The notes under the pieces: generated by a model
The model's input: the letters and a program-made list of their open reading frames with translations, nothing else
Told to the model about the DNA's origin: nothing
Database searches by the model: none
Part shown: positions 37,436-41,525 of the stretch, piece by piece
Layout of the letters: each line of letters starts with the position of its first letter
Numbering within the stretch: position 1 is the first letter of the stretch
Source: Nanobdellota archaeon
GTDB taxonomy: Archaea; Nanobdellota; Nanobdellia; Pacearchaeales; GW2011-AR1
Assembly: GCA_018830525.1 (NCBI GenBank)
Contig: JAHJSH010000029.1
Coordinates: forward strand, 1-41,525
Reading direction: 5' to 3'
DNA length: 41,525 nucleotides
Translations under genes and position numbers: made by a program

Positions 37436-37792
37436 TTAGATTTCAATTTGGATTTGCAAACTATCTATAACTAATACGGGTTTTAGGGACTCCCGATTTC
37501 CGGTTTTTTCTGCATGGAATTCAATGAATCCGAATCTTTCTAAGACTTTTATGTCTTCCCTTACAGACTTAAAATCCCTGCCAAGAATTTTTGCCAGTTC
37601 ATAGATTGATCTAGGATTCTTGGATTTTAATACATAAAGGATTCTTGATTTTTCATTACTGAGAAGATTTCGCAAGAGTTTAATGTCCGAAAAATCGTGG
37701 GGAGTTTTTTCTCCGATAAGTTTCGAGACGAAGTTCCCACTTTTTACATTGACTTCAACATATCTTACTTTTATTCTTTTTTTTGTTGCCAT
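37436..37792 (-). CDS. HTH transcriptional regulator (HVO_A0114-like family)
   Basis: NPRSIYELAKILGRDFKSVREDIKVLERFGFIEF. Confidence 0.65.
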   Translation of the reverse strand: MATKKRIKVRYVEVNVKSGNFVSKLIGEKTPHDFSDIKLLRNLLSNEKSRILYVLKSKNPRSIYELAKILGRDFKSVREDIKVLERFGFIEFHAEKTGNRESLKPVLVIDSLQIQIEI

Positions 37793-37962: not shown

Positions 37963-38047
37963 CAAACTTTATAAAGAAACTGGTGGAAACAGAAGATTTT
38001 AAGAGCATTTTGGAGAGATTCTGGGGGCGGAGGGCAAACTTTATAAA
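37963..38047 (+). promoter_or_regulatory. Tandem promoters: identical 13-mer caaactttataaa twice
   Basis: Copies at 37963-37975 and 38035-38047, each with a TATA box, upstream of the S-layer gene. Confidence 0.55.
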
Positions 38048-38070: not shown

Positions 38071-38310
38071 GCGTTATTGTTAATCAATAATGCTGACTAG
38101 TCAGTGTTCATATAGGGACCCTAGTGATGACACTTATAACGCTCCCTAGTTATAAGTCCAAAAACTTTTACTCTTCGAAAGTTTAACTTTCGTTATGACA
38201 AAATTGTCGTGAAGAGCAAAAATTTTTCCGGCCAGGCTATTAGAAAATCCGAACTCGCATTTGCGAGGCCTTGAAGAAGGCGGCTAAACTAATGGTACTG
38301 AAAGGAGGTT
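38071..38310 (+). promoter_or_regulatory. Long structured 5' leader of the S-layer gene
   Basis: Hairpins GCGTTATTG/CAATAATGC, ACTTATAAC/GTTATAAGT, CGAAAG/CTTTCG and GACAA/TTGTC inside CTCTTC/GAAGAG, CTCGCA/TGCGAG; SD aaaggaggtt at the end. Confidence 0.6.
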
Positions 38311-38319
38311 TAAAAAATA

Positions 38320-40938
38320 ATGAATAAAATATTTAGAAAAGCTATTACAATTTTAGGAAGTGCTGCTTTGATTGGAATGACTGTAGGTGCGGCGGCTGCT
38401 GCTTCTTACCCATCTCCTTTTACAAGTAATACTGCTATTGTTTACGGTTCTAATGCTGCTTTATCCGATAGAGCTGCAGTTACAGACATTGCTGAAAATA
38501 TTGACGCAGCTACTGCAGTTTCTGCAGGAGGTGCTGTGACTACAACTTCTGGAGATATAGTTTCATTAGATACTGGTTCTACCCGTATCTATTTGAATAC
38601 ATCGTTAAATACTGCGAAATCAGTATTTACAAAAACTGCTTTACCAGTGGTTCTTGCTGATGAGACTTTCTCAGGAAATGTAGATGCTGCTATGACTCAA
38701 ACAATTAAGTTTGCTGCTGGCGCAGCTGCAGGTGACGATAATAGTGGTAAGGTAATTTTTGCGAAACAACCAAGTAGTAATACAGACCCTAAGTTTGGTA
38801 TTAGTTTGGGAACTTCGCATTCTGATGATATTCTTTACAATGCTTCTGTTACTTTTGGAACTGCTGTGATGTTTAATCACACTGATTCAACAGGTGAAAA
38901 TATAAGATTATTTGGAAAGGATTTTGTTGTTAGTACTGCTACTACTGCTAGTAAATTGGTATTATTTTCTTCTGCTACTGAAATAAACTTAGTTGCGGGG
39001 GGGGCTAGTGCTAATCCAAGTTCTACAGTTGTGATTGATGGAACTTCTTATGAAGTTGAGTTAGTTACAGGTACAAGTACAACTGCTACAATCGCTGTAA
39101 ATGGTGAAAGTAAAGAAGTTACTGAAGGTTCTTCAAAGAAGATCAATGGAATCGATGTTGCTGTTAAATCAGTTACAGAATCCACTGCTCTTAGTACAGT
39201 TACTGCAAGTATTCTTGTGGGTTCTAATAAGATAACATTCCAGGCTTCTAGCCAGGTTCTTATGGGTTCAGATGATGATCCTGTAGATGGAACTTATGTT
39301 TATCTAACTGGAACTCCAGATTCATTAACAGGTTTAACTATTGCTACATTCAGACCAGACTCAAGCACTGATGCTATTCTTCCCGGACAGTCTTTCGTAG
39401 ACCCAGTCTTTGGAAGTTTCAAGGTAGATTTTGCTGGAATGAATATCGCAGATAATTCTGATGACAGGGAAACTATTTCTGTTCAGAATTCTGGAGACGA
39501 CACAATATCTGTGAAATTTACAGATGCTAATGCAAACGCTGGAACTGTTGAATTTGCACACAACGCAAGTGGATTGTTTTACTTAGCTGATGATAACAAC
39601 TACACTATGCATGTGATGGAAATGGCTAACTTGACAGAGAATGATTACATTATTATCGGAAACGAAGAATACGGAAAAATTCTTCAATTGACTGATATAT
39701 ACAATCAGACAACAGGTACCACATCTAAAACAAATGATAGGGTAAAATTCCAGAATGTTATGGATAGCACAGATACTTATAATACTGTGTTTACAACTAC
39801 TGAAGGATCAGGAACTCTTACTGTAGAGGGTAAGGAGTATACTGTTACTTTCTCTGGTTCAGATGATACTGGATGGGCAACTATTAAGAATCCTACTGGA
39901 GAGTCTGCTAATGCAAACACATTCGTAGTTTATCCTACTGTGAGAACTAAAAATAATGGATTGCTTGCTGTTTATGAGCCATTGAATATCGTATTAGGTA
40001 ATAATCGGACTACTTCCGGTGGAGCAAATTCTGTTACAACACTTAGATTCCCTGATGGTGATGGATATACGGATTTAGTTGCTACCTTTGCAGGTAATGT
40101 AACTGATGCTGTGTGGACACTTAGTGGTGCTGTTGCCGATACTTTGAATACTTCGGTGGGAGATTCCGCTACTCTTGTTATAGGACAATTAACCTATAAC
40201 CTAAGTACATCAGGTACTGCTAACGCAACTACGTTATACCTTATCGATCCTGAAGGAACTGCTAACATTGATCAACCGGCTATTGTTCTTTTCGAAGGAA
40301 AAGACGATAAGAATGAGTATCATGCTGTTGTTGTAGATTTAGAAGATAATTCTGCGGCTACTAGCTCGAACGGTGTTGGAGTGAATGATGTATTGTTTAG
40401 TTCTGACTACTACCATGCTTCTGCAACTCTTAACAGTGACAGTGACCTTACACAGGATGCTGATTTCTGGGGGACAATCACAACATTAAATGCTGATGAT
40501 TCCGACCAGAAGACAGTCTCGATAAGTTATCCAGGTAGCCAAATATATGCGCAAGTATATGTTGGTGAAGCGGATGCTACTATTGGTGGAGACGGTACTA
40601 GTGTAGGTGTAAAAACTTACGCTGATACTGAGGCTGCTTCATTCGCTGGAATGAATTTAGTTGTTGTTGGTGGTTCTGCTATCAACGCAATTGCTGCTGA
40701 GTTACTTGGTAGTGCTTACAGTGAAGGTGCGTTTACTACTGCTACTGGAATCGGTGCTGGAGAATTCTTAATCAAATCTTACGATAGATCTGGTAAGACT
40801 GCTCTATTAGTCGCTGGTTACAATGCTGCTGATACTGAAAAGGCTGCGAAGGTTCTTCTTAACGAAGTAATCAACACAGCTGTAGGAAAGGAATACAAAG
40901 GTGTTTCTTCTACTGAAGCAATCACGGTTATAGCTTAG
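38320..40938 (+). CDS. S-layer protein (methanogen-type family)
   Basis: Signal peptide, YPSPFTSNTAIVYGSNAALSDRAAVTDIAENI N-terminus; C-terminal SYDRSGKTALLVAGYNAADTEKAAKVLLN. Confidence 0.88.
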   Translation: MNKIFRKAITILGSAALIGMTVGAAAAASYPSPFTSNTAIVYGSNAALSDRAAVTDIAENIDAATAVSAGGAVTTTSGDIVSLDTGSTRIYLNTSLNTAKSVFTKTALPVVLADETFSGNVDAAMTQTIKFAAGAAAGDDNSGKVIFAKQPSSNTDPKFGISLGTSHSDDILYNASVTFGTAVMFNHTDSTGENIRLFGKDFVVSTATTASKLVLFSSATEINLVAGGASANPSSTVVIDGTSYEVELVTGTSTTATIAVNGESKEVTEGSSKKINGIDVAVKSVTESTALSTVTASILVGSNKITFQASSQVLMGSDDDPVDGTYVYLTGTPDSLTGLTIATFRPDSSTDAILPGQSFVDPVFGSFKVDFAGMNIADNSDDRETISVQNSGDDTISVKFTDANANAGTVEFAHNASGLFYLADDNNYTMHVMEMANLTENDYIIIGNEEYGKILQLTDIYNQTTGTTSKTNDRVKFQNVMDSTDTYNTVFTTTEGSGTLTVEGKEYTVTFSGSDDTGWATIKNPTGESANANTFVVYPTVRTKNNGLLAVYEPLNIVLGNNRTTSGGANSVTTLRFPDGDGYTDLVATFAGNVTDAVWTLSGAVADTLNTSVGDSATLVIGQLTYNLSTSGTANATTLYLIDPEGTANIDQPAIVLFEGKDDKNEYHAVVVDLEDNSAATSSNGVGVNDVLFSSDYYHASATLNSDSDLTQDADFWGTITTLNADDSDQKTVSISYPGSQIYAQVYVGEADATIGGDGTSVGVKTYADTEAASFAGMNLVVVGGSAINAIAAELLGSAYSEGAFTTATGIGAGEFLIKSYDRSGKTALLVAGYNAADTEKAAKVLLNEVINTAVGKEYKGVSSTEAITVIA

Positions 40939-41059: not shown

Positions 41060-41133
41060 GATAATCAAAAATCGATTTTTCATTTGTTTTTGTTGTACAA
41101 AAACCTTGCGTGAAAAATCAATTTGGTCTTATC
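41060..41133. repeat. ~74-nt imperfect long hairpin (nested inverted repeats)
   Basis: GATAATCAAAAATCGATTTTTCA versus TGAAAAATCAATTTGGTCTTATC, enclosing GTTTTTGT/ACAAAAAC. Confidence 0.55.
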
Positions 41134-41250
41134 GTATACAAGGCGAAATAAGATTTCTTGACGACTTCGTCCTCTCCCTTCGGGCCGGACAACCTGCGCC
41201 TAAAATATTATTTCGTGGGACGCTTAGGGGAATGTTGGGGCGACTTGCTC

Positions 41251-41388
41251 GGCTCGAAAAAAGTAGGCCGAGAAAGACCTTCATGTTTTTCTCTCAGGCT
41301 CGAAAAAAATTGGTCGAGGAAGACCTTCATGTTTTTCTCTCAGGCTCGAAAAAAATTGGTCGAGGAAGACCTTCATGTTTTTCTCTCA
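41251..41388. repeat. Three tandem 46-bp repeats plus trailing partial copy
   Basis: ggctcgaaaaaaattggtcgaggaagaccttcatgtttttctctca units at 41251, 41297 and 41343. Confidence 0.9.
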
Positions 41389-41480
41389 GGCTCGAAAAAA
41401 AGGTCGGGCTTTTTTTATGTTGTTTTGTTGATGGAAACCATGGGCGTAATTTTTATAAAGTCAATTTCCGACGGTTAGGT

Positions 41481-41525
41481 ATGAAAAGAATTCAGACTGC
41501 AGATATTTTGAAGCGTAAGGCTCGG
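41481..41525 (+). CDS. 5' end of a truncated gene (unidentified)
   Basis: MKRIQTADILKRKAR...; TATA-like tttttataaag about 30 nt upstream; runs off the window. Confidence 0.5.
   Translation, partial: MKRIQTADILKRKAR

Follow-up and report, generated by a model that had tools for sequence, protein, structure and literature searches.

The 5′ UTR stabiliser of E. coli ompA is a long leader on the mRNA of an abundant surface protein, with a hairpin at its 5′ end and a strong Shine-Dalgarno sequence. The S-layer mRNA slpA of Thermus thermophilus also has a long regulatory leader, and control by proteins acting on this 5′ UTR has been reported. To our knowledge, cis-acting RNA elements have seldom been demonstrated in archaea. 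The fluoride (crcB) and preQ1 riboswitches are structured 5′ UTR RNAs that occur in archaea, and a transcriptome study of 2014 noted that in vivo regulation by archaeal riboswitches or attenuators lacked direct experimental support (PMC4247193). The mRNA of Bacillus, in which RNase J acts, is stabilised when a hairpin, a ribosome site or a bound protein lies close to its 5′ end (PMC3997798, PMC7509114); a 5′ hairpin likewise stabilises mRNA in E. coli (PMC3997798). The SLH motif is a bacterial riboswitch candidate of unproven function found upstream of S-layer-homology genes (PMC6429828).

Here we analysed the leader of an archaeal S-layer gene in a 41,525-nt stretch of DNA (the window), which belongs to a 0.96-Mb draft genome. 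The comparison genomes were also drafts; among relatives with names, the element occurs in metagenome assemblies of 'Candidatus Pacearchaeota' and Nanoarchaeota. The leader resembles ompA in the features given above, but it is unrelated to it in sequence and domain of life, it has a kissing-type pairing between a loop and an upstream segment, to which one clade adds a covarying junction domain that reaches the Shine-Dalgarno sequence, and its stabilising role is predicted, with decay expected by an RNase J-type enzyme where that of ompA is by RNase E. It shares with slpA a long leader on an S-layer mRNA, although slpA is bacterial and unrelated, and its reported control is protein-mediated. 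Compared by description only, the SLH motif is also a candidate structured leader upstream of surface-layer genes, but it is set apart by its hosts (Synergistaceae, Clostridia and Negativicutes) and by its SLH-domain genes, the archaeal gene here being of the S_layer_C type. The crcB and preQ1 riboswitches differ from it in architecture and gene context, and no Rfam match links them to it.

Results

The S-layer locus

The TATA box of the S-layer promoter, TTTATAAA, lies at 38040–38047 on the plus strand, and CTTTATAWA is kept in all aligned relatives. Transcription starts here and below are those predicted from TATA boxes only. The gene that follows (38320–40938, plus strand) encodes a protein of 872 amino acids. 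On its own, this protein gave nothing above cut-off against Pfam, NCBIfam or PDB, scoring only 14.4 bits with Pfam S_layer_C; it was identified as an S-layer protein because its homologues pass this model (2.8e-11 and 4.4e-10). Of 164 genomes of the family, 143 contain such a homologue. The N- and C-terminal parts of the protein are conserved and its middle is barely alignable even inside the genus, a pattern of sequence variation that suggests rapid diversification or exchange.

A winged-helix gene is transcribed divergently (37436–37792, minus strand; PF25212 HVO_A0114, with weak Phr/ArsR similarity); at almost every locus examined in the family, it lies beside the S-layer gene. The two genes form a conserved divergent pair, and the winged-helix protein is a candidate regulator of S-layer transcription. 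On the 3′ side of the S-layer gene, 41106–41525 contains overlapping ORFs with repeated segments (SRKTFMFFSQARKKLVEEDLHVFLSGSKK) and has the look of tandemly repeated DNA, not of a gene.

The leader is strongly folded and outlasts its protein in conservation

On the sequence evidence, this region encodes the 5′ UTR of the S-layer mRNA. The RNA is a structured element acting in cis, conserved and covarying, in which related species have preserved the folds more than the letters. The 258-nt leader, taken between the predicted transcription start and the start codon, folds at −73.2 kcal/mol as compared to −52.7 ± 4.5 kcal/mol in 200 dinucleotide shuffles (z = −4.5), none of which was as low as the native sequence. 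Random 200-nt pieces of the window gave a z of 0.03 ± 1.1 and thus average about zero, so the folding of the leader is not due to genome composition. The mean z was −3.5 in 16 leaders of the clade carrying the R1 domain (described below) and −2.3 in 99 other S-layer leaders. All the hairpins and the palindrome listed in an earlier sequence-only reading of this DNA are present. A search of Rfam 15 with the leader at a permissive E-value returned no family; the only match was at chance level (16.1 bits, against a gathering score of 52) and on the other strand. The leader points to a previously undescribed RNA element; the element is new, but structured mRNA leaders as a kind are known.

A DNA search recovered the leader as two blocks, one from the promoter to hairpin B and the other covering the last 90 nt before the gene, both present in the genus and in some sister genera. 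Inside the genus, the blocks are mostly 77–92% identical, with two weaker 5′ blocks near 72%. At the sequence level, the leader is far better conserved than its protein. Between the window and one relative (G011), the leader is 85% identical and the S-layer protein 36%; the protein of another (G014) is closer, at 55%. In most other S-layer proteins, alignment is limited to the N-terminal part (about 30–34%) and the last 145 residues (44–62%), with no detectable similarity between these parts. The palindrome CTGACTAGTCAG (38093–38104, plus strand) is kept in most of the genus and not beyond.

We compared a wider set of 116 S-layer leaders from the family. The recurrent features were a hairpin at the start nucleotide, a hairpin with a CCCUR loop together with an upstream YAGGG, and a strong Shine-Dalgarno sequence. 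Depending on the stem threshold, 36 to 50 of the 116 leaders have no CCCUR hairpin and show other multi-hairpin arrangements instead. Among the S-layer leaders there is a second type without the CCCUA hairpin (L101, L102, L106, L107, L112, L117 and L118), in which several consecutive hairpins are closed by a GGC/GCC helix 5′ of the Shine-Dalgarno sequence.

A hairpin at the predicted first nucleotide

The first hairpin, P0 (38071–38093, plus strand), has the stem GCGTTATTG/CAATAATGC (38071–38079/38085–38093). Given the TATA box at 38040–38047, it starts 24 nt past this box, at the predicted transcription start. Relatives have hairpins of unrelated sequence at the same distance from the TATA box, the sequence differing between genera. 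Counted from the last base of the TATA box, hairpins most often begin at +20 to +22, where the first nucleotide is expected, and a hairpin at +19 to +25 was present in 43 of 106 leaders as against 13 of 497 other TATA-like sites. When one imperfect pair was allowed, the stem was extended by a G-T pair in 17 leaders and by an A-C pair in 1, read on the mRNA-sense strand. Such a preference (17:1) is the mark of a hairpin in RNA, as opposed to an operator palindrome in DNA.

Hairpin B and its pairing with an upstream segment

Hairpin B (38132–38157, plus strand) has the stem ACTTATAAC/GTTATAAGT (38132–38140/38149–38157). Its loop GCUCCCUA would pair with UAGGGA (38113–38118, plus strand), the 5′ side of a pseudoknot or kissing interaction; the loop sequence GCTCCCTA is complementary to TAGGGA at these positions. 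The stem is paired in all 9 of 9 relatives, with compensatory, both-side changes in 4 of 8 pairs. As a generic scan for complementarity between loops and upstream segments was swamped by AT-rich noise, it was replaced by a targeted CCCUR test with control loops. A hairpin of at least 6 bp with a CCCUR loop was found in 66 of the 116 family leaders, and 54 of these 66 have YAGGG within 110 nt upstream, where shuffling predicts 7.6. Permuted control loops gave 0–3 hairpins, except one that overlaps the motif itself.

The UAGGG/CCCUA core is nearly invariant, so covariation evidence from the core is limited; in one relative (G007), CAGGGA is paired with UCCCUG. The flanking pair of the interaction matches in 32 of 61 leaders against 21.5 expected (p = 0.002, an indicative value, since the permutation tests ignore relatedness). 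The putative pseudoknot, which the earlier reading had proposed for the TCCCTA loop and TAGGGA, is thus borne out by covariation of this flanking pair and by recurrence across the family. In many relatives AGGG lies inside the loop of a small hairpin, e.g. UCUAAU[AGGGA]AUUAGA, and there the interaction looks like a kissing loop. In the window's own clade this upstream hairpin is harder to make out, and UAGGG could alternatively pair locally with CCCUA at 38119–38123.

By eye, the same UAGGG/CCCUA pair was seen in leaders of two other families of the order (f2 and f5). S-layer leaders outside the family (L198, L199, L200 and L214) also have UAGGG, mostly together with CCCUA hairpins. These occurrences suggest that the leader may be order-wide. 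Several leaders outside the family carry a recurrent CTGGCCAGT palindrome.

An archaeal box C/D guide RNA, which needs conserved boxes C (RUGAUGA) and D (CUGA), was considered for this part of the leader and rejected, as GUGAUGA at 38124–38130 is replaced by GUGAUUA or GAGUUAA in relatives.

An insert shared with one relative

CTCTTC/GAAGAG (38171–38176/38211–38216) encloses two smaller hairpins, and this is the three-way junction of the sequence-only reading. In all relatives except G011 the two leader blocks are nearly adjacent, which makes 38158–38227 (plus strand) an insert present only in the window's genome (G000) and G011. It folds alike in both, with changed pairs. The junction is therefore a real fold, as had been claimed, but it lies outside the conserved element. 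A mobile element was rejected as the origin of the insert: there is no second copy in this genome and matches elsewhere are weak and partial.

The R1 domain encloses the start of the Shine-Dalgarno sequence

A conserved three-way junction, R1 (83 nt; 38226–38308, plus strand), lies directly before the gene. It is made of the helices P1 (38228–38229/38304–38305), P1a (38233–38235/38298–38300) and P2 (38236–38243/38289–38296), the hairpins P3 (CTCGC/GCGAG, 38254–38258/38263–38267) and P4 (38268–38272/38277–38281), and the conserved junction strand GGCUAA (38282–38287), all on the plus strand. The earlier reading had noted the CTCGC hairpin, which is indeed present, but it is one arm of this larger domain, which that reading mostly missed. 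In R1, the junction strands hardly vary (GAA and GGCUAA).

The Shine-Dalgarno sequence GGAGGT (38304–38309, plus strand) lies inside the conserved UGAAAGGAGG. The 16S tail of the same genome, GGATCACCTCCT, is complementary to AGGAGG, and UGAAAGGAGG, present in nearly all leaders, is a strong Shine-Dalgarno sequence. Its first two G's pair in P1, which pairs only 2–4 nt of it.

Covariance was assessed on 17 R1 sequences, using a common aligner and a structure-fitted model; a structure-free first alignment (A1) gave the same result. We observed that 97.9% of the cells were paired and that both sides had changed in 11 of 25 pairs. There were 39 compensatory cells compared to 10.2 in shuffled alignments, none of 500 shuffles being as high, and pairing fell to 29–53% when the partner was slid by 1–3 columns. 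The earlier reading had staked the structured leader on conservation and covariation of its stems, and the stems of both R1 and hairpin B show them.

The R1 covariance model matched 17 of 181 genomes of the family, in 6 genera of this one Pacearchaeota family, and had no match in other genomes of the order or in a phylum sample of 371. A search of viral contigs with the R1 pattern also gave no match. Wherever the gene 3′ of R1 was readable it was the S-layer gene, and all but one of the genomes have a single copy of the leader.

A crossing pair inside R1 (38231–38232 with 38283–38284; GYC before P2 and GRC after P4) was not retained. It is geometrically strained, and its both-side changes occur only in two copies in one genome (G052), which count as one compensatory event and do not establish it. 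An alternative local GUU/GGC pairing may form instead, though it fits fewer sequences.

Discussion

We propose that the leader would shield the S-layer mRNA from decay at its 5′ end and that in this clade R1 may also gate the ribosome site, a reading that we regard as an even call. A hairpin is predicted to start at the very first nucleotide of the transcript, the CCCUA loop of the second hairpin (B) can pair with the upstream UAGGG, and in this clade the first two G's of the Shine-Dalgarno sequence partly close R1. The blocked 5′ end and the compact fold would shield an abundant mRNA from 5′-end-dependent decay by an RNase J-type nuclease, making the S-layer message long-lived, and in this clade R1 would tune how readily ribosomes bind, by sequestering or freeing the Shine-Dalgarno sequence. 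Protection of the mRNA is favoured because the start hairpin, the tertiary pairing and the strong Shine-Dalgarno sequence match stabilisers of the ompA type, whose marks of a hairpin at or near the 5′ end (here at the predicted start) and a strong ribosome-binding site are both found, and because the genome encodes an RNase J-family protein. The sequence-only reading had offered a stability element or a riboswitch-like regulator; this proposal is supported in part, as the structure is conserved and covarying but its anatomy speaks for an element of stability or ribosome access rather than for a riboswitch.

The near-invariant GAA and GGCUAA of R1 exceed the needs of a simple stabiliser and hint at a bound ligand or protein. 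R1 could be an archaea-specific, ligand- or protein-sensing switch that gates the S-layer Shine-Dalgarno sequence on an order-wide kissing-loop leader. We consider this rather unlikely; if true, R1 would rank with the first cis-regulatory RNA switches to be known from DPANN archaea alone.

Feedback by a protein is an alternative of which we are similarly doubtful. The S-layer protein, or a dedicated RNA-binding protein, would bind R1 or the kissing core and repress translation when the coat protein is in excess. A single-copy element that always stands 5′ of the S-layer gene, with conserved unpaired junction strands beside a partly paired Shine-Dalgarno sequence, would suit such control, and the reported behaviour of the slpA leader counts in its favour. 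The S-layer protein, however, diverges strongly and the leader does not, so the variable part of the protein is unlikely to be the reader.

It is improbable that R1 is the aptamer of a small-molecule or ion riboswitch, whose ligand (e.g. an envelope precursor or a divalent ion) would open or close the Shine-Dalgarno sequence. R1 does have an aptamer-like fold conserved in 17 sequences, a three-way junction with near-invariant unpaired strands whose P1 closes on the Shine-Dalgarno sequence. Unlike most riboswitch classes, it is limited to one gene in 6 genera of one family (occurrence before several pathway genes or in many lineages being supportive of a riboswitch rather than strictly defining), sister genera make the same protein without R1, and there is no Rfam match.

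That the element acts at the level of DNA is very unlikely. The palindromes would then be operators for the divergent winged-helix regulator, whose gene is a conserved neighbour, or the leader would be a recombination anchor between S-layer alleles, as the hypervariable protein middle behind a conserved leader might suggest. Against both stand the compensatory stem changes, including G-U pairs on the mRNA-sense strand, the start-site hairpins unrelated in sequence between genera and the single leader copy in all but one genome. Chance structure can practically be dismissed: the genome is AT-rich, short inverted repeats are common in such intergenic DNA and the generic complementarity scan was noisy, but the z of −4.5, the covariation of R1 and hairpin B and the controls near zero argue against it.

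The finding adds a family-wide structured leader, supported by covariation and absent from Rfam, in uncultured archaea with reduced genomes, and the leader could be put to use as an expression module in laboratory archaea. The S-layer mRNA probably ranks among the cell's most abundant, and from its anatomy the leader probably helps to set the amount of coat protein made. It makes testable how small archaea sustain high S-layer synthesis.
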